Of a stretch of 64,000 bases of DNA, positions 11,203-64,000 are shown piece by piece. Where the stretch lies: NCBI RefSeq assembly GCF_036373705.1, contig NC_089856.1, forward strand, positions 14,414,501-14,478,500, in the 5' to 3' direction. The notes under the pieces were generated by a model. The model ran no database searches, was not told the origin of the DNA, and saw nothing but the letters and a program-made list of their open reading frames with translations. The stretch's first letter is position 1; every line of letters starts with the position of its first letter. Made by a program: the position numbers and the translations under genes. The DNA comes from Amia ocellicauda (taxonomy: Eukaryota > Chordata > Actinopteri > Amiiformes > Amiidae).

Positions 11203-11255
<53 letters not shown>

Positions 11256-14200: not shown

Positions 14201-14408
14201 CAAATAAATAAATATTCTCATTTCATTAGATCATTTCATCAAATAAATAAATTCTCATTTCATCAAATAAATAAACTCATTTCATTACTTCCTTTTTCCT
14301 ATTTCTAAAACTCAAATTTCACAAAAGGTTAATCACATTTCATTGCTCAACACATATATATAGATAAACCTACTGGCCAGTATGTAATAGAATAACAACA
14401 ACAACAAC

Positions 14409-14468
<60 letters not shown>

Positions 14469-38621: not shown

Positions 38622-38740
38622 TCTAGCTGCACAATCTCTCACTAATGGCAGTGGTCTTGGGTAGCTTGGTCACTTTCAGCTTTGGTTCGATCACCTATAT
38701 TGCAGTGTAGATTAGTAGCGTTTTTGGGTCCTTTGACCCC
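38622..38740 (+). repeat. Array edge: partial unit lacking the LINE segment
   Basis: CTCTAGCTGCACAATCTCTC to TTTTTGGGT matches the end of the non-LINE part of a unit (closest to the first full unit, which shares CTTGGGTAG and GTTTTTGGGT). It then jumps to CCTTTGACCCC and the landmark. About 770 bp of LINE sequence are missing here. Confidence 0.85.
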
Positions 38741-40823
38741 TTGGTCAACTTTCTTATGTTTCCTATCTACGCTTGAGGAGCTACGTTTGACAACATGCAA
38801 GCATGCTGGCTATTCCACTGTCACCCAATGGTGCACAGGTGCTTTGGATGCTGCAAAAAGGCAGAAGTCGACGACTTCCGGGATTTCATCATGAACGCTA
38901 AGACATTGTGGGCATTACTTGTTCATAAGCCTGGGAGTCAAAAGTGAGGCTAATGCACCCTGAGTGGGAGGGCTGTTACGTTTCATGGGGATATGGCTCC
39001 AGGCTCTAATCGGCTAAGGCTATACTTTCAGGGATCATTTCTGTAGTCTGTGGCTAGAGAAATGCTTTTCTAGACTGAGTGGTCTTACTGTCCACGAGGA
39101 AGAGTTCGGAGCATTCCTTTCTGAGCACGAGAAGAGCTTCAAACGCTGCTTTCTAGGAGCGGTTTGTAGCAATCGATGAGTGTTTCTGGGTTCTGCATGA
39201 AACGGAAGGAAAGGTTTGCAGTCTGAGTGGATTATTCCTTTCTGTCCGAAACAGTCGCGGTTTGTCGTGTGTTCTACCGCAAGTGGTTAGAAGCAGTCTG
39301 TCTTTCATTGACCGGACCGGGGTTTTCACCGTGTTTTGGTTTCCTGGCGTTTGTATGTGCTTTCCTGAGCCGTGCTGATTCGTTGATTGAGATGGATGTC
39401 TACATCGTCAGCTGTGTTAGGAGGACGGGAGAGATAGAGAGTGCAGGATCCACCTGTGGTCCCCATGACGTTATAAGGGGATGTAACCGTTGCTCGATGA
39501 ATACTGCTACAGCCCTTCAGATACGCCATAAGATATCTCCAAATGCTTTTCACAGCAAAAGGGGAGAAAACGAATCGTAGGCCTTGTCGAGCAGGAGGGT
39601 CTTCAGCCTGGTTCTAGGTCATGAGAGAGAGAGAGAGAGAGAGTTCTGGAGTCTGGGAGCCTGTCATTGAGAGGATCGTGTGCCAGAAGAACCCGACCTG
39701 TAAAAGGGTCGATAGAGTACATTTTGCATTGACAGAGCCCTCGGCTCCATTTGCAGCACGGCGCTGTATGACTTCTGCCAAATAAGAAAGCGCTGGAAGA
39801 CGCAGGGCCTTGATAGTCGGCAACAGTTTCTTGTAACTTACTGTCTGTGCCACTGGGAGCCCATGGAGGCTTAACAAAATACGTGTCATGGGAGGTCGCA
39901 ACCTCATGCAAGTCAGAACTCTAGCTGCACAATTTCTCACTAATTGCAGTTGATCTACAGTGGTCTTGGGTAGCTTGGCCACTTTCAGCTTTGGTTCGAT
40001 CACCTATATTGCAGGGTAGATTAGTTGCGTTTTTGGGTGGTCTCTCTTGCCACAGCGTTTGTCATCTTATCGTGGGCTGACGCCTGGCAGATGAGATTCA
40101 ATGTGGACAAGTGCAAGGTATTACAGGCAGGTAACAAAAATGTCCACTAGCATTTCACTAGGGGAGGAACACAAGAGGAAGACGTAACGCACGAGAAAAA
40201 ACCTAGGCGTTGATGTGGACTCATCACTTTCCCCATCCAAACAATGTGGGGAGGCAATAAGAAAGGCAAACAAAATGCTAGGGTACATTGTCAAAAGCGT
40301 TCAATTTCAAACAAGGGAAGTCATGTTACGACTGTACAATGCACTAGTTAGACCTCATCTGGAAAAGTGTGCACAGCGCTTCAAGAAAGAAATCGCTGCT
40401 CTCGAGGCAGTTCAGAGGTGAGCAACCAGACTTTCTCCTGGCTAGAAGGGTATGCCATACTCGGAGAGACTGAGGGATCTGAACCCTTTCACCCTGGAAC
40501 AGAGACGACTATGTGGGAACTTGATTCAAGTCTTCAAAATCGTGAAATGCGGTGACCAGATCAAGCCAGAGGAGCTTTTCCAGATGGGCAGGGACGCACG
40601 CACCCGGGGACACAAATGAAAATCGGCCTTCGAGGCACACAAGACAGTGAACAGGAGACGCTTCTTCACAAAGAGAGTTGTTCCAATCTGGAACAAACTC
40701 CCCAGCGATGTGGTTGAAGCCCACAATTTGGGAACATTCAAGAACAGACTGGACGTGATCCTTGGATCACCTGGGTATTAACAGACACCAGGCGAGAACG
40801 ATGGGTCGAATGGCCTCCTCCCC
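38741..40823 (+). repeat. Macrosatellite unit 1 (2,083 bp, edge copy)
   Basis: The most divergent complete unit, with private changes throughout (for example GTGAAATGCGGTGACCAGATC near 40545). It has a longer (GA)n run at about 39620-39642, which accounts for the extra 10 bp. Confidence 0.9.
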
Positions 40824-42908
40824 TTGGTCAACTTTCTTATGTTTCCTATCTACGCTTGAGGAGCTACGTTTGACAACATGCAAGCATGCTGGCTATTCCA
40901 CTGTCACCCAATGGTGCACAGTTGCTTTGGATGCTGCAAAAAGGCAGAAGTCGACGACTTCCGGGATTTCATCATGAACGCTAAGACATTGTGGGCATTA
41001 CTTGTTCATAAGCCTGGGAGTCAAAAGTGAGGCTAATGCACCCTGAGTGGCAGGGCTGTTACGTTTCATGGGGATATGGCTCCAGGCTCTAATCGGCTAA
41101 GGCTATACTTTCAGGGATCATTTCTGTAGTCTGTGGCTAGAGAAATGCTTTTCTAGACTGAGTGGTCTTGCTGTCCACGAGGAAGAGTTCGGAGCATTCC
41201 TTTCTGAGCACGAGAAGAGCTTCAAATGCTGTATTCTAGGAGCGGTTTGTAGCTATTGATGAGTGTTTCTGGGTTCTGCATGAAACGGAAGGAAAGGTTT
41301 GCAGTCAGAGTGGATTATTCCTTTCTGTCCGAAACAGTCACGTTTTGTCGTGTGTTCTCCCACAAGTGGTCAGAAGCAGTCCGTCTTTCTTTTACCGGAC
41401 CGGGGTTTTCACCGTGTTTTGGTTTCCTGGCGTTTGCTTGTGCTTTCCTGAGCCGTGCTGATTCGTTGATTGAGATGGATGTCTACATCGTCAGCTGTGT
41501 TAGGAGGACGGGAGATATAGAGAGTGCAGGATCCACCTGTGGTCCCCATGACGGTATAAGGGGATGTAACCGTTGCTCGATGAATACTGCTACAGCCCTT
41601 CAGATACGCCATAAGATATCTCCAAATGCTTTTCACAGCAAAAGGGGAGAAAACGAATCGTAGGCCTTGTCGAGCAGGAGGGTCTTCAGCCAGGTTCTAG
41701 GTCATGAGAGAGAGAGAGAGAGAGAGAGTTCTGGAGTCTGGGAGCCTGTCATTGAGAGGATCGTGTGCCAGAAGAACCCGACCTGTAAAAGGGTCGATAG
41801 AGTACGTTTTGCATTGACAGAGCCCTCGGCTCCATTTGCAGCACGGCGCTGTATGACTTCTGCCAAATAAGAAAGCGCTTGAAGACGCAGGGCCATGATA
41901 GTCGGCAACAGTTTCTTGTAACTTACTGTCTGTGCCACTGGGAGCCCATGGAGGCTTAACAAAATTCGTGTCATGGGAGGTCGCAACCTCATGCAAGTCA
42001 GAACTCTAGCTGCACAATTTCTCACTAATTGCAGTTGATCTACAGTGGTCTTGCGTAGCTTGGCCACTTTCAGCTTTGGTTCGATCACCTATATTGCAGG
42101 GTAGATAAGTTGCGTTATTGGCTGGTCTCTCTTGCCACAGCGTTTGTCATCTTATCGTGGGCTGACACCTGGCAGATGAGATTCAATGTGGACAAGTGCA
42201 AGGTATTACAGGCAGGTAACAAAAATGTCCACTAGCATTTCACTAGAGGAGGAACACAAGAGGAAGACGTAACGCACGAGAAAAAACCTAGACGTTGATG
42301 TGGACTCATCACTTTCCCCATCCAAACAATGTGGGGAGGCAATAAGAAAGGCCAACAAAATGCTAGGGTACATTGTCAAAAGCGTTCAATTTCAAACAAG
42401 GGAAATCATGTTACGACTGTACAATGCACTAGTTAGACCTCATCTGGAATAGTGTGCACAGCGCGTCAAGAAAGAAATCGCTGCTCTCGAGGCAGTTCAG
42501 AGGCGAGCAACCAGACTTTCTCCTGGCTTGAAGGGTATGTCATACTCGGAGAGACTGAGGGATCTGAACCCTTTCACCCTGGAACAGAGACGACTACGTG
42601 GGAACTTGATTCAAGTCTTCAAAATCGTGAAAGGCGGTGACCACATCAAACCAGAGGAGCTTTTCCAGATGGGCAGGGACGCACGCACCCGGGGACACAA
42701 ATGAAAATCGGCCTTCGAGGCACACAAGACAGCGAACAGGAGACGCTTCTTCACACAGAGAGTTGTTCCAATCTGGAACAAACTCCCCAGCGATGTGGTT
42801 GAAGCCCACAATTTGGGAACATTCAAGAACAGACTGGACGTGATCCTTGGATCGTCTGGGTATTAACAGAAACCAGGCGAGAACGATGGGTCGAACGGCC
42901 TCCTCCCC
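40824..42908 (+). repeat. Macrosatellite unit 2 (2,085 bp)
   Basis: The longest (GA)n run of the array (about 41704-41728) gives the extra 12 bp. Its second half is of type a (GACACCTGG, GCGCGTCAAG, CAGAAACCAGG), while its first half keeps private changes like unit 1. Confidence 0.9.
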
Positions 42909-44981
42909 TTGGTCAACTTTCTTATGTTTCCTATCTACGCTTGAGGAGCTACGTTTGACAACATGCAAGCATGCTGGCTATTCCACTGTCACCCAATGGT
43001 GCACAGGTGCTTTGGATGCTGCAAAGAGGCAGAAGTCGACGACTTCCGGGATTTCATCATGAACGCTAAGACATTGTGGGCATTACTTGTTCATAAGCCT
43101 GGGAGTCAAAAGTGAGGCTAATGCACCCTGAGTGGGAGGGCTGTTACGTTTCATGGGGATATGGCTCCAGGCTCTAATCGGTTAAGGCTATACTTTCAGG
43201 GATCATTTCTGTAGTCTGTGGCTAGAGAAATGCTTTTCTAGACTGAGTGGTCTTGCTGTCCACGAGGAAGAGTTCGGAGCATTCCCTTCTGAGCACGAGA
43301 AGAGCTTCAAACGCTGCTTTCTAGGAGCGGTTTGTAGCTATCGATGAGTGTTTCTGGGTTCTGCATGAAACGGAAGGAAAGGTTTGCAGTCTGAGTGGAT
43401 TATTCCTTTCTGTCCGAAACAGTTGCGGTTTGTCGTGTGGTCTCCCACAAGTGGTCAGAAGCAGTCTGTCTTTCTTTGACCGGACCGGGGTTTTCACCGT
43501 GTTTTGGATTCCTGGTGTTTGCATGTGCTTTCCTGAGCCGTGCTGATTCGTAGATTGAGATGAATGTCTACATCGTCAGCTGTGTTAGGAGGACGGGAGA
43601 TATAGAGAGTGCAGGATCCACCTGTGGTCCCCATGGCGGTATAAGGGGATGTAACCGTTGCTCGATGAATACTGCTACAGCCCTTCAGATACGCCATAAG
43701 ATATCTCCAAATGCTTTTCACAGCAAAAGGGGAGAAAACTAATCGTAGGCCTTGTCGAGCAGGATAGTCTTCTGCCAGGTTTTAGGTCATGAGAGAGAGA
43801 GTTCTGGAGTCTGGGAGCCTGTCATTGAGAGGATCGTGTGCCAGAAGAACCCGACCTGTAAAAGGGTCGATAGAGTACGTTTTGCATTGACAGAGCCCTC
43901 GGCTCCATTTGCAGCACGGCGCTGTATGACTTCTGCCAAATAAGAAAGCGCTGGAAGACGCAGAGCCATGATAGTCGGCAACAGTTTCTTGAATCTTACT
44001 GTCTGTGCCACTGGGAGCCCATGGAGGCTTAACACAATATGTGTCATGGGAGGTCGCATCCTCATGCAAGTCAGAACTCTAGCTGCACAATTTCTCACTA
44101 ATTGCAGTTGATCTACAGTGGTCTTGCGTAGCTTGGCCACTTTCAGCTTTGGTTCGATCACCTATATTGCAGGGTAGATTAGTTGCGTTATTGGCAGGTC
44201 TCTCTTGCCACAGCGTTTGTCATCTTATCGTGGGCTGACGCCTGGCAGATGGAATTCAATGTGGATAAGTGCAAGGTATTACAGGCAGGTAACAAAAATG
44301 TCCACTAGCATTTCACTAGAGGAGGAACACAAGAGGAAGACGTAACGCACGAGAAAAAACCTAGGTGTTGATGTGGACTCATCACTTTCCCCATCCAAAC
44401 AATGTGGGGAGGCAATAAGAAAGGCCAACAAAATGCTAGGGTACATTGTCAAAAGCGTTCAATTTCAAACAAGGGAAGTCATGTTACGACTGTACAATGC
44501 ACTAGTTAGACCTCAACTGGAATAGTGTGCACAGCGCTTCAAGAAAGAAATCGCTGCTCTCGAGGCAGTTCAGAGGCGAGCAACCAGACTTTCTCCTGGC
44601 TTGAAGGGTATGTCATACTCGGAGAGACTGAGGGATCTGAACCCTTTCACCCTGGAACAGAGACGACTACGTGGGAACTTGATTCAAGTCTTCAAAATCG
44701 TGAAAGGCGGTGACCACATCAAACCAGAGGAGCTTTTCCAGATGGGCAGGGACGCACGCACCCGAGGACACAAATGAAAATCGGCCTTCGAGGCACACAA
44801 GACAGCGAACAGGAGACGCTTCTTCACACAGAGAGTTGTTCCAATCTGGAACAAACTCCCCAGCGATGTGGTTGAAGCCCACAATTTGGGAACATTCAAG
44901 AACAGACTGGACGTGATCCTTGGATCATCTGGGTATTAACAGACACCAGGCGAGAACGATGGGTCGAACGGCCTCCTCCCC
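42909..44981 (+). repeat. Macrosatellite unit 3, type b
   Basis: Type b markers: AATCGGTTAAGG, GATGAATGTCTAC, AGGATAGTCTTCTG, GTCGCATCCTCATG, GGCAGGTCTC, GGAATTCAATGTGGATAAG, CACCCGAGGAC. It also carries CTTGAATCTTACTG, shared only with unit 11. Confidence 0.95.
43930..44161 (-). mobile_element. L2/CR1-like LINE reverse-transcriptase C-terminal fragment (example in unit 3)
   Basis: The - strand reads IEPKLKVAKL, then QLQLVRNCAARVLTCMR, MTHIVLSLHGLPVAQTV and KKLLPTIMAL. This corresponds to the conserved fish LINE pattern QLVQNAAARLLT...HITPVLxSLHWLPVxxRIxFK. Downstream the frame continues without recognisable similarity. The fragment is present at the same offset in every unit and has opposite orientation to the other LINE fragment. 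Confidence 0.7.
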
Positions 44982-45004
44982 TTGGTCAACTTTCTTATGT
45001 TTCC
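44205..45004 (+). mobile_element. CR1-like LINE 3' end (example in unit 3)
   Basis: Starts 5'-truncated at about 44205. Recognisable: WADAWQMEFNVDKCKVLQAG; VDSSLSPSKQCGEAIRKANK; MLRLYNALVRPxLE; ALEAVQRRATRLSPGLKGMS; LEQRRLRGNLIQVFKIVKGG; RRRFFTQRVVPIWNKLPSDV; LGTFKNRLDVIL. The 3' UTR-like end GGTCGAACGGCCTCCTCCCCTTGGTCAACTTTCTTATG follows. At least two frame changes and stops (TAG after CxLE, TGA after RTRGHK) exist in all units, so it was inactive before amplification. Confidence 0.85.
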
Positions 45005-47054
45005 TATCTACGCTTGAGGAGCTACGTTTGACAACATGCAAGCATGCTGGCTATTCCACTGTCACCCAATGGTGCACAGGTGCTTTGGATGCTGCAAAGA
45101 GGCAGAAGTCGACGACTACCGGGATTTCATCATGAACGCTAAGACATTGTGGGCATTACTTGTTTATAAGCCTGGGAGTCAAAAGTGAGGCTAATGCACC
45201 CTGAGTGGGAGGGCTGTTACGTTTCATGGGGATATGGCTCCAGGCTCTAATTGGCTAAGGCTATACTTTCAGGGATCATTTCTGTAGTCTGTGGCTAGAG
45301 AAATGCTTTTCTAGACTGAGTGGTCTTGCTGTCCACGAGGAAGAGTTCGGAGCATTCCTTTCTGAGCACGAGAAGAGCTTCAAACGTTGCTTTCTAGGAG
45401 CGATTTGTAGCTATCGATGAGTGTTTCTGGGTTCTGCATGAAACGGAAGGAAAGGTTTGCAGTCTGAGTGGATTATTCCTTTTTGTCCGAAACAGTCGCA
45501 GTTTGTCCTGTGTTCTCCCACAAGTGGTCAGAAGCAGTCCGTCTTTTTTTGACCGGACCGGGGTTTTCACCGTGTTTTGGATTCCTGGCGTTTGTATGTG
45601 CATTCCTGAGCTGTGCTGATTCGTTGATTGAGATGGATGTCTACATCGTCAGCTGTGTTAGGAGGACGGGAGAGATAGAGAGTGCAGGATCCACCTGTGG
45701 TCCCCATGACGATATAAGGGGATGTAACCGTTGCTCGATGAATACTGCTACAGCCCTTCAGATACGCCATAAGATATCTCCAAATGCTTTTCACAGCAAA
45801 AGGGGAGAAAACTAATCGTAGGCCTTGTCGAGCAGGAAAGTCTTCTGCCAGGTTCTAGGTCATGAGAGAGAGAGTTCTGGACTGTGGGAGCCTGTCATTG
45901 AGAGGATCGTGTGCCAGAAGAACCTGACCTGTAAAAGGGTCGATAGAGTACGTTTTGCATTGACAGAGCCCTCGGCTCCATTTGCAGCACGGCGCTGTAT
46001 GACTTCTGCCAAATAAGAAAGCACTGGAAGACGCAGGGCCTTGATAGTCGGCAACAGTTTCTTGTAACTTACTGTCTGTGCCACTGGGAGCCCATGGAGG
46101 CTTAACAAAATACGTGTCATGGGAGGTCGCAACCTCATGCAAGTCAGAACTCTAGCTGCACAAATTCTCACTAATTGCAGTTGATCTACAGTGGTCTTGC
46201 GTAGCTTGGCCACTTTCAGCTTTGGTTCGATCACCTATATTGCAGGGTAGATTAGTTGCGTTATTGGCTGGTCTCTCTTGCCACAGCGTTTGTCATCTTA
46301 TCGTGGGCTGATGCCTGGCAGATGAGATTTAATGTGGACAAGTGCAAGGTATTACAGGCAGGTAACAAAAATGTCCACTAGCATTTCACTAGGGGAGGAA
46401 CACAAGAGGAAGACGTAACGCACGAGACAAAACCTAGGCGTTGATGTGGACTCATCACTTTCCCCATCCAAACAATGTGGGGAGGCAATAAGAAAGGCCA
46501 ACAAAATGCTAGGGTACATAGTCAAAAGCGTTCAATTTCAAACAAGGGAAATCATGTTACGACTATACAATGCACTAGTTAGACCTCATCTGGAATAGTG
46601 TGCACAGCGCTTCAAGAAAGAAATTGCTGCTCTCGAGGCAGTTCAGAGGCGAGCAACTAGACTTTCTCCTGGCTTGAAGGCTATGTCATACTCGGAGAGA
46701 CTGATGGATCTGAACCCTTTCACCCTGGAACAGAGACGACTACGTGGGAACTTGATTCAAGTCTTCAAAATCGTGAAAGGCGGTGACCACATCAAACCAG
46801 AGGAGCATTTCCAGATGGGCAGGGACGCACGCACCCGGGGACAAAAATGAAAATCGGCCTTCGAGGCACACAAGACAGCGAACAGGAGACGCTTCTTCAC
46901 ACAGAGAGTTGTTCCAATCTGGAACAAACTCCCCAGCGATGTGGTTGAAGCCCACAATTTGGGAACATTCAAGAACAGACTGGACGTGATCCTTGGATCG
47001 TCTGGGTATTAACAGACACCAGGCGAGAACGATGGGTCGAACGGCCTCATCCCC
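44982..47054 (+). repeat. Macrosatellite unit 4, type c
   Basis: Type c markers: ACTACCGGG, CTTGTTTATAAG, AATTGGCTAAGG, GAGCTGTGCTG, GACGATATAAGG, AGGAAAGTCTTCTG, TGGACTGTGGGAG, GATGAGATTTAATG, CACGAGACAAAACC, GGGGACAAAAATG. Confidence 0.95.
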
Positions 47055-49127
47055 TTGGTCAACTCTATTATGTTTCCTATCTATGCTTGAGGAGCTACGT
47101 TTGACAACATGCAAGCATGCTGGCTATTCCACTGTCACCCAATGGTGCACAGGTGCTTTGGATGCTGCAAAAAGGCAGAAGTCGACGACTTCCGGGATTT
47201 CATCATGAACGCTAAGACATTGTGGGCATTACTTGTTCATAAGCCTGGGAGTCAAAAGTGAGGCTAATGCACCCTGAGTGGGAGGGCTGTTACGTTTCAT
47301 GGGGATATGGCTCCAGGCTCTAATCGGCTAAGGCTATACTTTCAGGGATCATTTCGGTAGTCTGTGGCTAGAGAAATGCTTTTCTAGACTGAGTGGTCTT
47401 GCTGTCCACGAGGAAGAGTTCGGAGCATTCCTTTCTGAGCACGAGAAGAGCTTCAAACGCTGCTTTCTAGGAGCGGTTTGTAGCTATCGATGAGTGTTTC
47501 TGGGTTCTGCATGAAACGGAAGGAAAGGTTTGCAGTCTGAGTGGATTATTCCTTTCTGTCCGAAACAGTCACGGTTTGTCGTCTGTTCTCTCACAAGTGG
47601 TCAGAAGCAGTCCGTCTTTTTTTGACCGTTCTGGGGTTTTCACCGTGTTTTGGATTCCTGGCGTTTGCATGTGCTTTCCTGAGCCGTGCTGATTCGTAGA
47701 TTGAGATGGATGTCTACATCGTCAGCTGTGTTAGGAGGACGGGAGAGATAGAGAGTGCAGGATCCACCTGTGGTCCCCATGGCGGTATAAGGGGATGTAA
47801 CCGTTGCTCGATGAATACTGCTACAGCCCTTCAGATACGCCATAAGATATCTCCAAATGCTTTTCACAGCAAAAGGGGAGAAAACTAATCGTAGGCCTTG
47901 TCGAGCAGGAGGGTCTTCAGCCTGGTTCTAGGTCATGAGAGAGAGAGTTCTGGAGTCTGGGAGCCTGTCATTGAGAGGATCGAGTGCCAGAAGAACCCGA
48001 CCTGTAAAAGGGTCGATAGAGTACGTTTTGCATTGACAGAGCCCTCGGCTCCATTTGCAGCACGGCGCTGTATGACTTCTGCCAAATAAGAAAGCGCTGG
48101 AAGACGCAGAGCCTTGATAGTCGGCAACAGTTTCTTGTAACTTACTGTCTGTGCCACTGGGAGCCCATGGAGGCTTAACAAAATTCGTGTCATGGGAGGT
48201 CGCAACCTCATGCAAGTCAGAACTCTAGCTGCACAATTTCTCACTAATTGCAGTTGATCTACAGTGGTCTTGCGTAGCTTGGCCACTTTCAGCTTTGGTT
48301 CGATCACCTATATTGCAGGGTAGATAAGTTGCGTTATTGGCTGGTCTCTCTTGCCACAGCGTTTGTCATCTTATCGTGGGCTGACACCTGGCAGATGAGA
48401 TTCAATGTGGACAAGTGCAAGGTATTACAGGCAGGTAACAAAAATGTCCACTAGCATTTCACTAGAGGAGGAACACAAGAGGAAGACGTAACGCACGAGA
48501 AAAAACCTAGACGTTGATGTGGACTCATCACTTTCCCCATCCAAACAATGTGGGGAGGCAATAAGAAAGGCCAACAAAATGCTAGGGTACATTGTCAAAA
48601 GCGTTCAATTTCAAACAAGGGAAATCATGTTACGACTGTACAATGCACTAGTTAGACCTCATCTGGAATAGTGTGCACAGCGCGTCAAGAAAGAAATCGC
48701 TGCTCTCGAGGCAGTTCAGAGGCGAGCAACCAGACTTTCTCCTGGCTTGAAGGGTATGTCATACTCGGAGAGACTGAGGGATCTGAACCCTTTCACCCTG
48801 GAACAGAGACGACTACGTGGGAACTTGATTCAAGTCTTCAAAATCGTGAAAGGCGGTGACCACATCAAACCAGAGGAGCTTTTCCAGATGGGCAGGGACG
48901 CACGCACCCGGGGACACAAATGAAAATCGGCCTTCGAGGCACACAAGACAGCGAACAGGAGACGCTTCTTCACACAGAGAGTTGTTCCAATCTGGAACAA
49001 ACTCCCCAGCGATGTGGTTGAAGCCCACAATTTGGGAACATTCAAGAACAGACTGGACGTGATCCTTGGATCGTCTGGGTATTAACAGAAACCAGGCGAG
49101 AACGATGGGTCGAACGGCCTCCTCCCC
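47055..49127 (+). repeat. Macrosatellite unit 5, type a
   Basis: Type a markers: ACTCTATTATG, CATTTCGGTAGTC, CGTCTGTTCTCTCAC, GACCGTTCTGGGG, GATTCGTAGATTGAGATGG, GATCGAGTGCC, GACACCTGG, GCGCGTCAAG, CAGAAACCAGG. Nearly the same as unit 10. Confidence 0.95.
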
Positions 49128-51200
49128 TTGGTCAACTTTCTTATGTTTCCTATCTACGCTTGAGGAGCTACGTTTGACAACATGCAAGCATGCTGGCTAT
49201 TCCACTGTCACCCAATGGTGCACAGGTGCTTTGGATGCTGCAAAGAGGCAGAAGTCGACGACTTCCGGGATTTCATCATGAACGCTAAGACATTGTGGGC
49301 ATTACTTGTTCATAAGCCTGGGAGTCAAAAGTGAGGCTAATGCACCCTGAGTGGGAGGGCTGTTACGTTTCATGGGGATATGGCTCCAGGCTCTAATCGG
49401 TTAAGGCTATACTTTCAGGGATCATTTCTGTAGTCTGTGGCTAGAGAAATGCTTTTCTAGACTGAGTGGTCTTGCTGTCCACGAGGAAGAGTTCGGAGCA
49501 TTCCCTTCTGAGCACGAGAAGAGCTTCAAACGCTGCTTTCTAGGAGCGATTTGTAGCTATCGATGAGTGTTTCTGGGTTCTGCATGAAACGGAAGGAAAG
49601 GTTTGCAGTCTGAGTGGATTATTCCTTTCTGTCCGAAACAGTTGCGGTTTGTCGTGTGGTCTCCCACAAGTGGTCAGAAGCAGTCTGTCTTTCTTTGACC
49701 GGACCGGGGTTTTCACCGTGTTTTGGATTCCTGGTGTTTGCATGTGCTTTCCTGAGCCGTGCTGATTCGTAGATTGAGATGAATGTCTACATCGTCAGCT
49801 GTGTTAGGAGGACGGGAGATATAGAGAGTGCAGGATCCACCTGTGGTCCCCATGGCGGTATAAGGGGATGTAACCGTTGCTCGATGAATACTGCTACAGC
49901 CCTTCAGATACGCCATAAGATATCTCCAAATGCTTTTCACAGCAAAAGGGGAGAAAACTAATCGTAGGCCTTGTCGAGCAGGATAGTCTTCTGCCAGGTT
50001 TTAGGTCATGAGAGAGAGAGTTCTGGAGTCTGGGAGCCTGTCATTGAGAGGATCGTGTGCCAGAAGAACCCGACCTGTAAAAGGGTCGATAGAGTACGTT
50101 TTGCATTGACAGAGCCCTCGGCTCCATTTGCAGCACGGCGCTGTATGACTTCTGCCAAATAAGAAAGCGCTGGAAGACGCAGAGCCATGATAGTCGGCAA
50201 CAGTTTCTTGTAACTTACTGTCTGTGCCACTGGGAGCCCATGGAGGCTTAACACAATATGTGTCATGGGAGGTCGCATCCTCATGCAAGTCAGAACTCTA
50301 GCTGCACAATTTCTCACTAATTGCAGTTGATCTACAGTGGTCTTGCGTAGCTTGGCCACTTTCAGCTTTGGTTCGATCACCTATATTGCAGGGTAGATTA
50401 GTTGCGTTATTGGCAGGTCTCTCTTGCCACAGCGTTTGTCATCTTATCGTGGGCTGACGCCTGGCAGATGGAATTCAATGTGGATAAGTTCAAGGTATTA
50501 CAGGCAGGTAACAAAAATGTCCACTAGCATTTCACTAGAGGAGGAACACAAGAGGAAGACGTAACGCACGAGAAAAAACCTAGGTGTTGATGTGGACTCA
50601 TCACTTTCCCCATCCAAACAATGTGGGGAGGCAATAAGAAAGGCCAACAAAATGCTAGGGTACATTGTCAAAAGCGTTCAATTTCAAACAAGGGAAGTCA
50701 TGTTACGACTGTACAATGCACTAGTTAGACCTCAACTGGAATAGTGTGCACAGCGCTTCAAGAAAGAAATCGCTGCTCTCGAGGCAGTTCAGAGGCGAGC
50801 AACCAGACTTTCTCCTGGCTTGAAGGGTATGTCATACTCGGAGAGACTGAGGGATCTGAACCCTTTCACCCTGGAACAGAGACGACTACGTGGGAACTTG
50901 ATTCAAGTCTTCAAAATCGTGAAAGGCGGTGACCACATCAAACCAGAGGAGCTTTTCCAGATGGGCAGGGACGCACGCACCCGAGGACACAAATGAAAAT
51001 CGGCCTTCGAGGCACACAAGACAGCGAACAGGAGACGCTTCTTCACACAGAGAGTTGTTCCAATCTGGAACAAACTCCCCAGCGATGTGGTTGAAGCCCA
51101 CAATTTGGGAACATTCAAGAACAGACTGGACGTGATCCTTGGATCATCTGGGTATTAACAGACACCAGGCGAGAACGATGGGTCGAACGGCCTCCTCCCC
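49128..51200 (+). repeat. Macrosatellite unit 6, type b
   Basis: Carries the type b marker set of unit 3, with few private differences (GATAAGTTCAAGG; CTTGTAACTTACTG instead of CTTGAATCTTACTG; GCGATTTGTAGC). Confidence 0.95.
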
Positions 51201-53256: not shown

Positions 53257-55329
53257 TTGGTCAACTTTCTTATGTTTCCTATCTACGCTTGAGGAGCTAC
53301 GTTTGACAACATGCAAGCATTCTGGCTATTCCACTGTCACCCAATGGTGCACAGGTGCTTTGGATGCTGCAAAGAGGCAGAAGTCGACGACTTCCGGGAT
53401 TTCATCATGAACACTAAGACATTGTGGGCATTACTTGTTCATAAGCCTGGGAGTCAAAAGTGAGGCTAATGCACCCTGAGTGGGAGGGCTGTTACGTTTC
53501 ATGGGGATATGGCTCCAGGCTCTAATCGGCTAAGGCTATACTTTCAGGGATCATTTCTGTAGTCTGTGGCTAGAGAAATGCTTTTCTAGACTGAGTGGTC
53601 TTGCTGTCCACGAGGAAGAGTTCGGAGCATTCCTTTCTGAGCACGAGAAGAGCTTCAAACGCTGCTTTCTAGGAGCGATTTGTAGCGATCGATGAGTGTT
53701 TCTGGGTTCTGCATGAAACGGAAGGAAAGGTTTGCAGTCTGAGTGGATTATTTCTTTCTGTCCGAAACAGTCGCAGTTTGTCGTGTGTTCTCCCACAAGT
53801 GGTCAGAAGCAGTCCGTCTTTTTTTGACCGGACCGGGGTTTTCACCGTGTTTTGGATTCCTGGCGTTTGTATGTGCATTCCTGAGCTGTGCTGATTCGTT
53901 GATTGAGATGGATGTCTACATCGTCAGCTGTGTTAGGAGGACGGGAGAGATAGAGAGTGCAGGATCCACCTGTGGTCCCCATGACGATATAAGGGGATGT
54001 AACCGTTGCTCGATGAATACTGCTACAGCCCTTCAGATACGCCATAAGATATCTCCAAATGCTTTTCACAGCAAAAGGGGAGAAAACTAATCGTAGGTCT
54101 TGTCGAGCAGGAAAGTCTTCTGCCAGGTTCTAGGTCATGAGAGAGAGAGTTCTGGACTGTGGGAGCCTGTCATTGAGAGGATCGTGTGCCAGAAGAACCC
54201 GACCTGTAAAAGGGTCGATAGAGTACGTTTTGCATTGACAGAGCCCTCGGCTCCATTTGCAGCACGGCGCTGTATGACTTCTGCCAAATAAGAAAGCACT
54301 GGAAGACGCAGGGCCTTGATAGTCGGCAACAGTTTCTTGTAACTTACTGTCTGTGCCACTGGGAGCCCATGGAGGCTTAACAAAATACGTGTCATGGGAG
54401 GTCGCAACCTCATGCAAGTCAGAACTCTAGCTGCACAAATTCTCACTAATTGCAGTTGATCTACAGTGGTCTTGCGTAGCTTGGCCACTTTCAGCTTTGG
54501 TTCGATCACCTATATTGCAGGGTAGATTAGTTGCGTTATTGGCTGGTCTCTCTTGCCACAGCGTTTGTCATCTTATCGTGGGCTGACGCCTGGCAGATGA
54601 GATTCAATGTGGACAAGTGCAAGGTATTACAGGCAGGTAACAAAAATGTCCACTAGCATTTCACTAGGGGAGGAACACAAGAGGAAGACGTAACGCACGA
54701 GAAAAAACCTAGGCGTTGATGTGGACTCATCACTTTCCCCATCCAAACAATGTGGGGAGGCAATAAGAAAGGCCAACAAAATGCTAGGGTACATTGTCAA
54801 AAGCGTTCAATTTCAAACAAGGGAAGTCATGTTACGACTGCACAATGCACTAGTTAGACCTCATCTGGAATAGTGTGCACAGCGCTTCAAGAAAGAAATC
54901 GCTGCTCTCGAGGCAGTTCAGAGGCGAGCAACCAGACTTTCTCCTGGCTTGAAGGGTATGTCATACTCGGAGAGACTGAGGGATCTGAACCCTTTCACCC
55001 TGGAACAGAGACGACTACGTGGGAACTTGATTTAAGTCTTCAAAATCGTGAAAGGCGGTGACCACATCAAACCAGAGGAGCATTTCCAGATGGGCAGGGA
55101 CGCACGCACCCGGGGACACAAATGAAAATCGGCCTTCGAGGCACACAAGACAGCGAACAGGAGACGCTTCTTCACACAGAGAGTTGTTCCAATCTGGAAC
55201 AAACTCCCCAGCGATGTGGTTGAAGCCCACAATTTGGGAACATTCAAGAACAGACTGGACGTGATCCTTGGATCATCTGGGTATTAACAGACACCAGGCG
55301 AGAACGATGGGTCGAACGGCCTCCTCCCC
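53257..55329 (+). repeat. Macrosatellite unit 8, type c variant
   Basis: Markers AAGCATTCTGGC, GAACACTAAG, GGATTATTTCTTTC, GACGATATAAGG, GACTGCACAATG, TTGATTTAAGTC. Very close to unit 9 over the first about 1,350 bp, suggesting a recent single-unit duplication. Confidence 0.95.
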
Positions 55330-57402
55330 TTGGTCAACTTTCTTATGTTTCCTATCTACGCTTGAGGAGCTACGTTTGACAACATGCAAGCATTCTGGCT
55401 ATTCCACTGTCACCCAATGGTGCACAGGTGCTTTGGATGCTGCAAAGAGGCAGAAGTCGACGACTTCCGGGATTTCATCATGAACACTAAGACATTGTGG
55501 GCATTACTTGTTCATAAGCCTGGGAGTCAAAAGTGAGGCTAATGCACCCTGAGTGGGAGGGCTGTTACGTTTCATGGGGATATGGCTCCAGGCTCTAATC
55601 GGCTAAGGCTATACTTTCAGGGATCATTTCTGTAGTCTGTGGCTAGAGAAATGCTTTTCTAGACTGAGTGGTCTTGCTGTCCACGAGGAAGAGTTCGGAG
55701 CATTCCTTTCTGAGCACGAGAAGAGCTTCAAACGCTGCTTTCTAGGAGCGATTTGTAGCGATCGATGAGTGTTTCTGGGTTCTGCATGAAACGGAAGGAA
55801 AGGTTTGCAGTCTGAGTGGATTATTTCTTTCTGTCCGAAACAGTCGCAGTTTGTCGTGTGTTCTCCCACAAGTGGTCAGAAGCAGTCCGTCTTTTTTTGA
55901 CCGGACCGGGGTTTTCACCGTGTTTTGGATTCCTGGCGTTTGTATGTGCATTCCTGAGCTGTGCTGATTCGTTGATTGAGATGGATGTCTACATCGTCAG
56001 CTGTGTTAGGAGGACGGGAGAGATAGAGAGTGCAGGATCCACCTGTGGTCCCCATGACGATATAAGGGGATGTAACCGTTGCTCGATGAATACTGCTACA
56101 GCCCTTCAGATACGCCATAAGATATCTCCAAATGCTTTTCACAGCAAAAGGGGAGAAAACTAATCGTAGGCCTTGTCGAGCAGGAAAGTCTTCTGCCAGG
56201 TTCTAGGTCATGAGAGAGAGAGTTCTGGACTGTGGGAGCCTGTCATTGAGAGGATCGTGTGCCAGAAGAACCCGACCTGTAAAAGGGTCGATAGAGTACG
56301 TTTTGCATTGACAGAGCCCTCGGCTCCATTTGCAGCACTGCGCTGTATGACTTCTGCCAAATAAGAAAGCACTGGAAGACGCAGGGCCTTGATAGTCGGC
56401 AACAGTTTCTTGTAACTTACTGTCTGTGCCACTGGGAGCCCATGGAGGCTTAACAAAATACGTGTCATGGGAGGTCGCAACCTCATGCAAGTCAGAACTC
56501 TAGCTGCACAAATTCTCACTAATTGCAGTTGATCTACAGTGGTCTTGCGTAGCTTGGCCACTTTCAGCTTTGGTTCGATCACCTATATTGCAGGGTAGAT
56601 TAGTTGCGTTATTGGCTGGTCTCTCTTGCCACAGCGTTTGTCATCTTATCGTGGGCTGATGCCTGGCAGATGAGATTTAATGTGGACAAGTGCAAGGTAT
56701 TACAGGCAGGTAACAAAAATGTCCACTAGCATTTCACTAGGGGAGGAACACAAGAGGAAGACGTAACGCACGAGACAAAACCTAGGCGTTGATGTGGACT
56801 CATCACTTTCCCCATCCAAACAATGTGGGGAGGCAATAAGAAAGGCCAACAAAATGCTAGGGTACATAGTCAAAAGCGTTCAATTTCAAACAAGGGAAAT
56901 CATGTTACGACTATACAATGCACTAGTTAGACCTCATCTGGAATAGTGTGCACAGCGCTTCAAGAAAGAAATTGCTGCTCTCGAGGCAGTTCAGAGGCGA
57001 GCAACTAGACTTTCTCCTGGCTTGAAGGCTATGTCATACTCGGAGAGACTGATGGATCTGAACCCTTTCACCCTGGAACAGAGACGACTACGTGGGAACT
57101 TGATTCAAGTCTTCAAAATCGTGAAAGGCGGTGACCACATCAAACCAGAGGAGCATTTCCAGATGGGCAGGGACGCACGCACCCGGGGACAAAAATGAAA
57201 ATCGGCCTTCGAGGCACACAAGACAGCGAACAGGAGACGCTTCTTCACACAGAGAGTTGTTCCAATCTGGAACAAACTCCCCAGCGATGTGGTTGAAGCC
57301 CACAATTTGGGAACATTCAAGAACAGACTGGACGTGATCCTTGGATCGTCTGGGTATTAACAGACACCAGGCGAGAACGATGGGTCGAACGGCCTCATCC
57401 CC
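55330..57402 (+). repeat. Macrosatellite unit 9, recombinant within type c
   Basis: The first part matches unit 8 (AAGCATTCTGGC, GAACACTAAG, GATTATTTC). The last part matches unit 4 (GATGAGATTTAATG, CACGAGACAAAACC, GGGGACAAAAATG, CCTCATCCCC). Private CAGCACTGCGC at about 56334. The switch lies between about 56334 and 56670. Confidence 0.9.
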
Positions 57403-59475
57403 TTGGTCAACTCTATTATGTTTCCTATCTATGCTTGAGGAGCTACGTTTGACAACATGCAAGCATGCTGGCTATTCCACTGTCACCCAATGGTGCACAG
57501 GTGCTTTGGATGCTGCAAAAAGGCAGAAGTCGACGACTTCCGGGATTTCATCATGAACGCTAAGACAATGTGGGCATTACTTGTTCATAAGCCTGGGAGT
57601 CAAAAGTGAGGCTAATGCACCCTGAGTGGGAGGGCTGTTACGTTTCATGGGGATATGGCTCCAGGCTCTAATCGGCTAAGGCTATACTTTCAGGGATCAT
57701 TTCGGTAGTCTGTGGCTAGAGAAATGCTTTTCTAGACTGAGTGGTCTTGCTGTCCACGAGGAAGAGTTCGGAGCATTCCTTTCTGAGCACGAGAAGAGCT
57801 TCAAACGCTGCTTTCTAGGAGCGGTTTGTAGCTATCGATGAGTGTTTCTGGGTTCTGCATGAAACGGAAGGAAAGGTTTGCAGTCTGAGTGGATTATTCC
57901 TTTCTGTCCGAAACAGTCACGGTTTGTCGTCTGTTCTCTCACAAGTGGTCAGAAGCAGTCCGTCTTTTTTTGACCGTTCTGGGGTTTTCACCGTGTTTTG
58001 GATTCCTGGCGTTTGCATGTGCTTTCCTGAGCCGTGCTGATTCGTAGATTGAGATGGATGTCTACATCGTCAGCTGTGTTAGGAGGACGGGAGAGATAGA
58101 GAGTGCAGGATCCACCTGTGGTCCCCATGGCGGTATAAGGGGATGTAACCGTTGCTCGATGAATACTGCTACAGCCCTTCAGATACGCCATAAGATATCT
58201 CCAAATGCTTTTCACAGCAAAAGGGGAGAAAACTAATCGTAGGCCTTGTCGAGCAGGAGGGTCTTCAGCCTGGTTCTAGGTCATGAGAGAGAGAGTTCTG
58301 GAGTCTGGGAGCCTGTCATTGAGAGGATCGAGTGCCAGAAGAACCCGACCTGTAAAAGGGTCGATAGAGTACGTTTTGCATTGACAGAGCCCTCGGCTCC
58401 ATTTGCAGCACGGCGCTGTATGACTTCTGCCAAATAAGAAAGCGCTGGAAGACGCAGAGCCTTGATAGTCGGCAACAGTTTCTTGTAACTTACTGTCTGT
58501 GCCACTGGGAGCCCATGGAGGCTTAACAAAATTCGTGTCATGGGAGGTCGCAACCTCATGCAAGTCAGAACTCTAGCTGCACAATTTCTCACTAATTGCA
58601 GTTGATCTACAGTGGTCTTGCGTAGCTTGGCCACTTTCAGCTTTGGTTCGATCACCTATATTGCAGGGTAGATAAGTTGCGTTATTGGCTGGTCTCTCTT
58701 GCCACAGCGTTTGTCATCTTATCGTGGGCTGACACCTGGCAGATGAGATTCAATGTGGACAAGTGCAAGGTATTACAGGCAGGTAACAAAAATGTCCACT
58801 AGCATTTCACTAGAGGAGGAACACAAGAGGAAGACGTAACGCACGAGAAAAAACCTAGACGTTGATGTGGACTCATCACTTTCCCCATCCAAACAATGTG
58901 GGGAGGCAATAAGAAAGGCCAACAAAATGCTAGGGTACATTGTCAAAAGCGTTCAATTTCAAACAAGGGAAATCATGTTACGACTGTACAATGCACTAGT
59001 TAGACCTCATCTGGAATAGTGTGCACAGCGCGTCAAGAAAGAAATCGCTGCTCTCGAGGCAGTTCAGAGGCGAGCAACCAGACTTTCTCCTGGCTTGAAG
59101 GGTATGTCATACTCGGAGAGACTGAGGGATCTGAACCCTTTCACCCTGGAACAGAGACGACTACGTGGGAACTTGATTCAAGTCTTCAAAATCGTGAAAG
59201 GCGGTGACCACATCAAACCAGAGGAGCTTTTCCAGATGGGCAGGGACGCACGCACCCGGGGACACAAATGAAAATCGGCCTTCGAGGCACACAAGACAGC
59301 GAACAGGAGACGCTTCTTCACACAGAGAGTTGTTCCAATCTGGAACAAACTCCCCAGCGATGTGGTTGAAGCCCACAATTTGGGAACATTCAAGAACAGA
59401 CTGGACGTGATCCTTGGATCGTCTGGGTATTAACAGAAACCAGGCGAGAACGATGGGTCGAACGGCCTCCTCCCC
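57403..59475 (+). repeat. Macrosatellite unit 10, type a
   Basis: Carries the full type a marker set of unit 5, 10,348 bp downstream of it. The few differences seen include GACAATGTGGGC near 57564. Confidence 0.95.
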
Positions 59476-61548
59476 TTGGTCAACTTTCTTATGTTTCCTA
59501 TCTACGCTTGAGGAGCTACGTTTGACAACATGCAAGCATGCTGGCTATTCCACTGTCACCCAATGGTGCACAGGTGCTTTGGATGCTGCAAAGAGGCAGA
59601 AGTCGACGACTTCCGGGATTTCATCATGAACGCTAAGACATTGTGGGCATTACTTGTTCATAAGCCTGGGAGTCAAAAGTGAGGCTAATGCACCCTGAGT
59701 GGGAGGGCTGTTACGTTTCATGGGGATATGGCTCCAGGCTCTAATCGGTTAAGGCTATACTTTCAGGGATCATTTCTGTAGTCTGTGGCTAGAGAAATGC
59801 TTTTCTAGACTGAGTGGTCTTGCTGTCCACGAGGAAGAGTTCGGAGCATTCCCTTCTGAGCACGAGAAGAGCTTCAAACGCTGCTTTCTAGGAGCGGTTT
59901 GTAGCTATCGATGAGTGTTTCTGGGTTCTGCATGAAACGGAAGGAAAGGTTTGCAGTCTGAGTGGATTATTCCTTTCTGTCCGAAACAGTCACAGTTTGT
60001 CGTGTGGTCTCCCACAAGTGGTCAGAAGCAGTCTGTCTTTCTTTGACCGGACCGGGGTTTTCACCGTGTTTTGGATTCCTGGTGTTTGCATGTGCTTTCC
60101 TGAGCCGTGCTGATTCGTAGATTGAGATGAATGTCTACATCGTCAGCTGTGTTAGGAGGACGGGAGATATAGAGAGTGCAGGATCCACCTGTGGTCCCCA
60201 TGGCGGTATAAGGGGATGTAACCGTTGCTCGATGAATACTGCTACAGCCCTTCAGATACGCCATAAGATATCTCCAAATGCTTTTCACAGCAAAAGGGGA
60301 GAAAACTAATCGTAGGCCTTGTCGAGCAGGATAGTCTTCTGCCAGGTTTTAGGTCATGAGAGAGAGAGTTCTGGAGTCTGGGAGCCTGTCATTGAGAGGA
60401 TCGTGTGCCAGAAGAACCCGACCTGTAAAAGGGTCGATAGAGTACGTTTTGCATTGACAGAGCCCTCGGCTCCATTTGCAGCACGGCGCTGTATGACTTC
60501 TGCCAAATAAGAAAGCGCTGGAAGACGCAGAGCCATGATAGTCGGCAACAGTTTCTTGAATCTTACTGTCTGTGCCACTGGGAGCCCATGGAGGCTTAAC
60601 ACAATATGTGTCATGGGAGGTCGCATCCTCATGCAAGTCAGAACTCTAGCTGCACAATTTCTCACTAATTGCAGTTGATCTACAGTGGTCTTGCGTAGCT
60701 TGGCCACTTTCAGCTTTGGTTCGATCACCTATATTGCAGGGTAGATTAGTTGCGTTATTGGCAGGTCTCTCTTGCCACAGCGTTTGTCATCTTATCGTGG
60801 GCTGACGCCTGGCAGATGGAATTCAATGTGGATAAGTGCAAGGTATTACAGGCAGGTAACAAAAATGTCCACTAGCATTTCACTAGAGGAGGAACACAAG
60901 AGGAAGACGTAACGCACGAGAAAAAACCTAGGTGTTGATGTGGACTCATCACTTTCCCCATCCAAACAATGTGGGGAGGCAATAAGAAAGGCCAACAAAA
61001 TGCTAGGGTACATTGTCAAAAGCGTTCAATTTCAAACAAGGGAAGTCATGTTACGACTGTACAATGCACTAGTTAGACCTCAACTGGAATAGTGTGCACA
61101 GCGCTTCAAGAAAGAAATCGCTGCTCTCGAGGCAGTTCAGAGGCGAGCAACCAGACTTTCTCCTGGCTTGAAGGGTATGTCATACTCGGAGAGACTGAGG
61201 GATCTGAACCCTATCACCCTGGAACAGAGACGACTACGTGGGAACTTGATTCAAGTCTTCAAAATCGTGAAAGGCGGTGACCACATCAAACCAGAGGAGC
61301 TTTTCCAGATGGGCAGGGATGCACGCACCCGAGGACACAAATGAAAATCGGCCTTCGAGGCACACAAGACAGCGAACAGGAGACGCTTCTTCACACAGAG
61401 AGTTGTTCCAATCTGGAACAAACTCCCCAGCGATGTGGTTGAAGCCCACAATTTGGGAACATTCAAGAACAGACTGGACGTGATCCTTGGATCATCTGGG
61501 TATTAACAGACACCAGGCGAGAACGATGGGTCGAACGGCCTCCTCCCC
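59476..61548 (+). repeat. Macrosatellite unit 11, type b
   Basis: Type b markers, and CTTGAATCTTACTG shared only with unit 3. Private changes include AACCCTATCACCC (about 61207) and GGGATGCACG. Confidence 0.95.
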
Positions 61549-63621
61549 TTGGTCAACTTTCTTATGTTTCCTATCTACGCTTGAGGAGCTACGTTTGACA
61601 ACATGCAAGCATGCTGGCTATTCCACTGTCACCCAATGGTGCACAGGTGCTTTGGATGCTGCAAAGAGGCAGAAGTCGACGACTACCGGGATTTCATCAT
61701 GAACGCTAAGACATTGTGGGCATTACTTGTTTATAAGCCTGGGAGTCAAAAGTGAGGCTAATGCACCCTGAGTGGGAGGGCTGTTACGTTTCATGGGGAT
61801 ATGGCTCCAGGCTCTAATCGGCTAAGGCTATACTTTCAGGGATCATTTCGGTAGTCTGTGGCTAGAGAAATGCTTTTCTAGACTGAGTGGTCTTGCTGTC
61901 CACGAGGAAGAGTTCGGAGCATTCCTTTCTGAGCACGAGAAAAGCTTCAAACGCTGCTTTCTAGGAGCGGTTTGTAGCTATCGATGAGTGTTTCTGGGTT
62001 CTGCATGAAACGGAAGGAAAGGTTTGCAGTCTGAGTGGATTATTCCTTTCTGTCCGAAACAGTCACGGTTTGTCGTCTGTTCTCTCACAAGTGGTCAGAA
62101 GCAGTCCGTCTTTTTTTGACCGTTCTGGGGTTTTCACCGTGTTTTGGATTCCTGGCGTTTGCATGTGCTTTCCTGAGCCGTGCTGATTCGTAGATTGAGA
62201 TGGATGTCTACATCGTCAGCTGTGTTAGGAGGACGGGAGAGATAGAGAGTGCAGGATCCACCTGTGGTCCCCATGGCGGTATAAGGGGATGTAACCGTTG
62301 CTCGATGAATACTGCTACAGCCCTTCAGATACGCCATAAGATATCTCCAAATGCTTTTCACAGCAAAAGGGGAGAAAACTAATCGTAGGCCTTGTCGAGC
62401 AGGAGGGTCTTCAGCCTGGTTCTAGGTCATGAGAGAGAGAGTTCTGGAGTCTGGGAGCCTGTCATTGAGAGGATCGAGTGCCAGAAGAACCCGACCTGTA
62501 AAAGGGTCGATAGAGTACGTTTTGCATTGACAGAGCCCTCGGCTCCATTTGCAGCACGGCGCTGTATGACTTCTGCCAAATAAGAAAGCGCTGGAAGACG
62601 CAGAGCCTTGATAGTCGGCAACAGTTTCTTGTAACTTACTGTCTGTGCCACTGGGAGCCCATGGAGGCTTAACAAAATTCGTGTCATGGGAGGTCGCAAC
62701 CTCATGCAAGTCAGAACTCTAGCTGCACAATTTCTCACTAATTGCAGTTGATCTACAGTGGTCTTGCGTAGCTTGGCCACTTTCAGCTTTGGTTCGATCA
62801 CCTATATTGCAGGGTAGATAAGTTGCGTTATTGGCTGGTCTCTCTTGCCACAGCGTTTGTCATCTTATCGTGGGCTGACACCTGGCAGATGAGATTCAAT
62901 GTGGACAAGTGCAAGGTATTACAGGCAGGTAACAAAAATGTCCACTAGCATTTCACTAGAGGAGGAACACAAGAGGAAGACGTAACGCACGAGAAAAAAC
63001 CTAGACGTTGATGTGGACTCATCACTTTCCCCATCCAAACAATGTGGGGAGGCAATAAGAAAGGCCAACAAAATGCTAGGGTACATTGTCAAAAGCGTTC
63101 AATTTCAAACAAGGGAAATCATGTTACGACTGTACAATGCACTAGTTAGACCTCATCTGGAATAGTGTGCACAGCGCGTCAAGAAAGAAATCGCTGCTCT
63201 CGAGGCAGTTCAGAGGCGAGCAACCAGACTTTCTCCTGGCTTGAAGGGTATGTCATACTCGGAGAGACTGAGGGATCTGAACCCTTTCACCCTGGAACAG
63301 AGACGACTACGTGGGAACTTGATTCAAGTCTTCAAAATCGTGAAAGGCGGTGACCACATCAAACCAGAGGAGCTTTTCCAGATGGGCAGGGACGCACGCA
63401 CCCGGGGACACAAATGAAAATCGGCCTTCGAGGCACACAAGACAGCGAACAGGAGACGCTTCTTCACACAGAGAGTTGTTCCAATCTGGAACAAACTCCC
63501 CAGCGATGTGGTTGAAGCCCACAATTTGGGAACATTCAAGAACAGACTGGACGTGATCCTTGGATCGTCTGGGTATTAACAGAAACCAGGCGAGAACGAT
63601 GGGTCGAACGGCCTCCTCCCC
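61549..63621 (+). repeat. Macrosatellite unit 12, c/a recombinant
   Basis: Begins with type c markers (ACTACCGGG at about 61683, CTTGTTTATAAG at about 61727) and continues with type a markers from AATCGGCTAAGG (about 61817) and CATTTCGGTAGTC (about 61845) to the end. The crossover is therefore within about 61737-61819. Confidence 0.95.
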
Positions 63622-64000
63622 TTGGTCAACTTTCTTATGTTTCCTATCTACGCTTGAGGAGCTACGTTTGACAACATGCAAGCATGCTGGCTATTCCACT
63701 GTCACCCAATGGTGCACAGGTGCTTTGGATGCTGCAAAGAGGCAGAAGTCGACGACTTCCGGGATTTCATCATGAACGCTAAGACATTGTGGGCATTACT
63801 TGTTCATAAGCCTGGGAGTCAAAAGTGAGGCTAATGCACCCTGAGTGGGAGGGCTGTTACGTTTCATGGGGATATGGCTCCAGGCTCTAATCGGTTAAGG
63901 CTATACTTTCAGGGATCATTTCTGTAGTCTGTGGCTAGAGAAATGCTTTTCTAGACTGAGTGGTCTTGCTGTCCACGAGGAAGAGTTCGGAGCATTCCCT
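63622..64000 (+). repeat. Macrosatellite unit 13, partial, type b so far
   Basis: 379 bp up to the window edge, carrying AATCGGTTAAGG and CATTCCCT like the other type b units. The array continues beyond the window. Confidence 0.9.

Follow-up and report, generated by a model that had tools for sequence, protein, structure and literature searches.

The right-hand part of a 64,000-nucleotide stretch of the Amia ocellicauda genome (contig NC_089856.1, here C7; the whole stretch analysed, C7:14414501-14478500, is termed the window) very probably holds a tandem array of U3 small nucleolar RNA (snoRNA) genes, a reading that covers the array itself, the genes it contains and the way it grew. The initial annotation had described the same region as an anonymous satellite with a core of two opposed long interspersed nuclear element (LINE) fragments, and had found no intact gene that could explain the amplification. 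None of these three points is supported, given a full-length U3 sequence (Rfam RF00012), overlooked at first, that lies in each unit and is accompanied by candidate flanking signals, while the LINE pieces lie in the spacer.

Head-to-tail units of nearly constant length (about 2,073 bp), extending over more than 25 kb and running off the window, had already been recognised, and this macrosatellite-like organisation was confirmed by self-comparison of the window and by a search of the host genome (988,188,214 bases in 385 contigs). The dominant period was 2073 bp (12,640 successive 20-mer recurrences), and identity at that lag was 0.93-1.00 in 250-bp bins wholly inside stretches of that period; array stretches outside it had a local lag of 2083, 2085 or 2056 bp and similar identity. 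Self-comparison and U3 phasing gave head-to-tail unit lengths of 2056-2085 bp, mostly 2073 bp, with successive U3 start-to-start distances in the window of 2083, 2085, 2073 (four times), 2056 and 2073 (five times) bp. Pairwise identity of the 13 window copies, the partial one included, was 96.9-100% (mean 98.1%). Genome-wide, the unit was matched at 32 places from C7:14453457 to 14518805, in addition to an edge remnant, and genome stretches reaching past the window delimited a whole array of 32 U3-bearing units, 65.8 kb long, at a unit spacing of 2056-2085 bp. Its right end, at about C7:14518913, lies inside the part of the last unit that derives from a LINE presumably of the CR1 family. The leader at the left edge is 84.7% identical to the unit over 118 aligned columns; a pre-CR1 empty site was considered for it and ruled out, since the last CR1 bases are retained. 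Near-identical units do not adjoin one another (u05, u10 and u12; u03, u06 and u11), indicating exchange among units. With its head-to-tail units, high within-array identity and exchange among non-neighbours, the region is a tandem multigene array under concerted evolution. A separate observation concerns a hypervariable block of 100 bp at +25 to +124 after U3 (39256-39355 in one window example), where 34 of 100 sites vary among the 32 units; the block resembles linked haplotypes among the window units, which suggests conversion tracts.

The U3 sequence is 216 nucleotides (nt) long and lies on the + strand of each unit. All 12 whole window copies scored 125.6-130.5 bits (E values 7e-29 to 1e-27) against an RF00012 gathering cut-off of 34 bits, with the whole model covered, and all 32 array copies in the genome exceeded the cut-off, at 118.4-135.4 bits. 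The order along the unit is LINE 3' end (+), about 240 bp of upstream sequence, U3, spacer, LINE-like fragment (-) and LINE 3' end again (Table 1). No other RNA family was found by Rfam in the one unit scanned at E values up to 1, none but U3 exceeded the Rfam cut-offs in the whole window, and a bacterial-mode scan returned no tRNA genes. A vertebrate-type U3 box A pattern had no exact match among viral contigs.

Table 1. Features of the U3 array, in window positions; transcription signals and LINE fragments are given for unit 2.
Feature	Position	Strand	Remarks
Tandem array, window part	38621..64000	+	leader fragment, 12 whole units, one partial unit; by self-comparison
Left-edge leader	38621..38755	+	partial unit; CR1 body missing, last CR1 3'-end bases kept
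U3 copy 1	39016..39231	+	130.1 bits
U3 copy 2	41099..41314	+	128.9 bits; D box TCAGA, TCTGA in the other 31 copies
U3 copy 3	43184..43399	+	130.5 bits; used for pair counts
U3 copy 4	45257..45472	+	129.3 bits
U3 copy 5	47330..47545	+	125.6 bits; box A region differs, G at nt 27
U3 copy 6	49403..49618	+	127.1 bits
U3 copy 7	51476..51691	+	129.2 bits
U3 copy 8	53532..53747	+	126.4 bits
U3 copy 9	55605..55820	+	126.4 bits
U3 copy 10	57678..57893	+	125.6 bits; G at nt 27
U3 copy 11	59751..59966	+	130.5 bits
U3 copy 12	61824..62039	+	126.2 bits; G at nt 27, A at nt 119
U3 copy 13	63897..64000	+	cut by window end; whole copy present in genome
Octamer-like distal sequence element candidate ATGCAAGC	40878..40885	+	-221 of U3 copy 2; same in 13/13 window copies; putative function
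ETS/GABP-like site CCGGAAGT	40957..40964	-	-142; putative function
Proximal sequence element candidate, consensus GCACCCTGAGTGGG	41038..41051	+	last base differs in copy 2; putative function
3' box candidate GTCCGAAACAG	41327..41337	+	+13 after U3 copy 2; putative function
LINE C-terminal-like fragment	41717..42088	-	approximate ends; from translation
5'-truncated CR1/L2-like LINE 3' end	42124..42925	+	approximate ends

The genome search with RF00012 yielded at least 55 U3 matches, a lower bound from the scoring of 63 of 7346 first-look candidates. Contig C4 carries 15 copies at 147.7 bits, one variant (L009, 205 nt) at 152.1 bits and five weak matches at 88.9-96.8 bits; other relatives lie on C7 (one, 73.3 bits) and C18 (one, 36.4 bits). 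Over 201 nt the 15 C4 copies do not differ by a single letter; they have standard B and C boxes, and the array type is identical to this common C4 type at 130 of 195 aligned positions. Judged by these sequence comparisons, the array holds a second U3 family that has diverged from the canonical one on C4. In the C4 flanks, 41 to 82 per 100 positions vary in the upstream 400 bp across all 15 copies; once four odd copies (L010, L011, L012 and L024) are left out, variation falls to 7 of 700 positions among the remaining 11. That U3 is the same in the four odd copies too argues for conservation, whereas the remaining 11 may simply be young, and part of the contrast in uniformity between C4 and the array may come from that youth. 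The canonical cluster spans C4:19571700-20230630, with five genes at exact 2556-bp spacing, two at 19.57 Mb, and most other spacings 12.7-19.4 kb (20.08-20.23 Mb cluster). In local alignment, the similarity between the array and the relative at C7:17.35 Mb (L044 1606-1818) covers just U3 and the next 11 bp. This relative is a decayed array-type U3, perhaps a retrocopy of a pre-U3 transcript; a forced alignment of it fades, without a sharp stop.

Candidates for a distal sequence element (DSE), a proximal sequence element (PSE) and a 3' box flank the array U3, offset by no more than a few bases from their counterparts in the C4 genes L020 and L012. The octamer of the C4 genes is ATGCAAAT at -223 (L020) and -220 (L012), and AGGCAAAT at -224 (L009). 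The PSE candidate starts at -61, with its CACC core at -60 in the array and -59 in L020 and L012; no CACC-type PSE candidate was seen in L009. The 3' box candidate of L020, L012 and L009 is GTCAATAACAG / GTGAAAAACAG at +17. The ETS/GABP-like site is intact in 10 of the 13 window copies, and none of the three C4 promoters inspected has it. For RNU3 genes in human cells, POU2F1 and GABPA peaks are reported, without ZNF143 (PMC3499247).

The + strand LINE fragment spans unit positions of about 1285-2073 and continues slightly into the next unit. It is 80% identical to a dispersed C18 element that carries RVT_1 in its more 5' part (E 3.4e-12), indicating that the fragment is a 5'-truncated LINE 3' end, as the initial annotation had proposed. 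The C18 element was also considered as an old copy of the unit, and this was ruled out, since its LINE extends further in the 5' direction and the stretch separating LINE from U3 gave no local match. The - strand fragment (unit positions of about 867-1238) is presumably a LINE C-terminal region, putatively L2-like, to judge from the motifs of its reading frame, and Pfam returned nothing significant for either LINE fragment of the unit. The earlier count of two LINE fragments is borne out for the + strand, while for the - strand it depends on those motif resemblances.

The box A/A' consensus ACUUUCAGGGAUCAUUUCUGUAGU of the array U3 is altered in 7 of 32 copies, and the C'/D motif, which is taken here to be a kink-turn (k-turn), reads CCACGAGGAAGAG in all 32 and UCUGAGUGG in 31. 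Box B is GAGCACGAGAAG in 30 of 32 copies, where the model has GAGCGUGAAG; box C is CGAUGA in 26, UGAUGA, as in the model, in five and CGAUAA in one. With C or U accepted at the first base of box C, all boxes of the array type (A, C', B, C and D) are kept in 24 of 32 copies. The unusual changes in boxes B and C look mutually compensating. Pair 112/166, G-C in the model and in C4, is A-U in the array type, and further changes, noted by eye beyond the Rfam pairs, turn 113/165 from U/U (model) or C/C (C4) into C/G, 116/159 from A/U into G/C, and 117/158 from G/U into A/U; on an after-the-fact k-turn reading, the tandem G-A core of the B/C motif is retained.

U3 pairing is also kept in the array type. 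In the array copy at 43184, 52 of 61 model pairs are standard, compared with 46 of 55 in the common C4 type, 52 of 60 in L009 and 42 of 59 in the decayed C7:17.35 Mb relative. Where both members of a pair in that copy differ from the Rfam consensus, pairing persists in 19 of 24 cases (binomial p 6e-4), and in 15 of 17 (binomial p 2e-4) once the gapped stem is set aside, under a simple null of 4/9; measured against L009 the count is 12 of 16 (p 0.013), and against the common C4 type it is 7 of 10 (p 0.10, not significant). Strongly conserved consensus letters of the Rfam model are kept in the array U3 at 66 of 79 positions, compared with 57 of 140 weak ones.

A number of observations speak against present function. 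Across the 32 copies, U3 is variable at 27 of 216 sites and the spacer (+125 to +384) at 29 of 260 (p 0.67), and in the 12 window units 13 of 216 U3 sites vary, compared with 120 of 1869 in the rest. Selection on the promoter is not visible among the 32 copies either (31 of 260 upstream sites vary, versus 29 of 260 in the spacer, p 0.89). This variability of the array U3 stands beside the identity of the 15 C4 copies; the array U3 scores 12-34 bits under the main C4 genes, one or other of boxes A, B, C and D is altered in 8 of 32 copies, and U faces U at two pairs of the terminal helix. The octamer candidate agrees at 6 of 8 positions, versus 8 of 8 in L020 and L012, and since 6 of 8 is also reached at three further places of the array promoter, it rests on its position. 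Finally, the alignments behind the pair counts follow the Rfam model and are thereby biased towards pairing, and minimum free energy was not better than that of shuffled sequences (z -0.71; 48 of 200 shuffles fold at least as well). Taken singly, the present array copies show no sign of selection. In the reading adopted here, the array ancestor would have been a working U3 with its own evolved B/C motif, and the chances that the array type is still expressed as a working U3 are roughly balanced.

Nearly the same weight, just under an even chance, is given to one reading of the array's present state, a U3-derived satellite, in which a duplicated U3 locus lost its function and was then amplified neutrally in tandem, so that the array U3 would be a fossil and the C4 genes would do all the work. 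This explanation accommodates a U3 no less variable than its spacer, the box changes, the imperfect octamer, the intact canonical family elsewhere and the decayed relatives on C7 and C18. It is harder to reconcile with pairing that equals that of the canonical genes and exceeds that of the C7:17.35 Mb relative, with the compensatory double changes at the B/C motif, with 3' box and PSE candidates in place, and with the copies that keep every box.

The other reading of that state, a U3 isoform confined to oocytes or embryos, is unlikely; it would parallel the maternal-type 5S, 45S and U1/U6 genes known from zebrafish. One genome with two divergent U3 families would suit it, and zebrafish maternal and somatic pairs are reported to lie in separate clusters (PMC5513064, PMC11075544). 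However, a 23-base 18S start pattern, with at most two mismatches allowed, gave six places, none of them an intact second type of ribosomal DNA (rDNA): four share one external transcribed spacer type (C201, C262, C277 and C360), and those on C6 and C359 are decayed. Hinge complementarity to the external transcribed spacer (1.5 kb covered) or to 18S (0.5 kb covered) was not above shuffles, with 12 to 40 of 40 shuffles reaching it for the three U3 types. The related proposal that the array encodes a stage- or tissue-specific second U3 with an altered B/C protein-binding motif, giving two U3 small nucleolar ribonucleoproteins (snoRNPs), is equally improbable. As to the rDNA itself, tandem repeats of about 113-115 bp lie upstream of 18S on C201, C262 and C277 (L055-L057), a C358-like copy (L058) has a match at the same spacing, and the decayed 18S 5' fragments on C6 (L054) and C359 (L059) lie away from the main rDNA contigs.

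Expansion of a few units by the assembler is very improbable: window copies are 97-100% identical, as such an artefact would have them, but there are many site differences between units, which also vary in length, and 21 distinct U3 sequences occur among the 32 copies. A LINE-built macrosatellite without a gene, for which the LINE fragments in the unit speak, is scarcely tenable given a full-length U3 in 32 of 32 units and host-like flanking signals in the copies examined.

For the tandem U3 gene array, the following course of events is proposed. The unit would correspond to one U3 transcription unit, with its DSE, PSE and 3' box candidates, and a spacer with LINE debris, namely a truncated LINE 3' end and probably also a second, opposed LINE remnant. 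The LINEs would have inserted into the spacer of a founding unit and been carried along during amplification, with unequal exchange or gene conversion leading to 32 copies, as in U1, U2 and 5S arrays, and with homogenisation proceeding in blocks. Transcription by RNA polymerase II with SNAPc, processing of a precursor at the 3' box and snoRNP assembly would follow, and the array U3 would take part in 18S pre-rRNA processing.

Elsewhere in the window, integrin beta exons lie at about 9926-26927 on the + strand (Pfam), one of which best matches integrin beta-7 in PDB, and the array starts about 11.7 kb past the last of these exons scanned. Mobile element pieces comprise a reverse transcriptase piece (65-1048), a Tc-type transposase piece (2605-3075), a reverse transcriptase frame adjoining a PNMA-matching frame (16839-20182) and a DDE_3 transposase piece (33183-33641).

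With this interpretation, an anonymous "macrosatellite" becomes an array of genes for an RNA essential to ribosome production, and one vertebrate genome holds two U3 families that have diverged strongly, of which one is uniform and the other is drifting, providing a test case for housekeeping RNA genes that turn into specialised isoforms or satellites. A limited literature search found no title or abstract opening that describes a vertebrate tandem U3 array, a result that does not in itself show novelty.

The U2 small nuclear RNA (snRNA) genes of fish are arrayed in tandem, with putative PSE, DSE and 3' box, the toadfish sequence being 820 bp long, and human and primate U2 are also named in the same report (PMC3544641). 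The U3 array resembles the U2 arrays of toadfish and moronids (PMC3544641), and that of human RNU2, in having one RNA polymerase II-type snRNA gene per unit and in concerted evolution. It differs in its RNA, in a 2.07-kb unit, in the LINE remnants of its spacer, in the presence of a second canonical family elsewhere and in a U3 that is not more conserved than the spacer. In Euglena gracilis, U3 genes are likewise multicopy, standing alone or linked to U5 or tRNA genes, but in contrast to the array, a PCR test for tandem U3 was negative there (PMC2784804). The dual gene sets of zebrafish, where maternal and somatic types of 5S, 45S and U1/U6 genes are described (PMC5513064, PMC11075544), offer a parallel in that a housekeeping RNA likewise comes in two diverged types, encoded in separate clusters; unlike them, the array is accompanied by no second rDNA type in the 18S pattern search. 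By analogy, a maternal-type U3 would be a fair guess. Within the same genome, the canonical C4 family shares with the array its RNA family, a similar promoter layout and a similar 3' box position, and is set apart from it by identical 201-nt copies, standard B and C boxes and a spacing of 2556 bp or about 12.7-19.4 kb.

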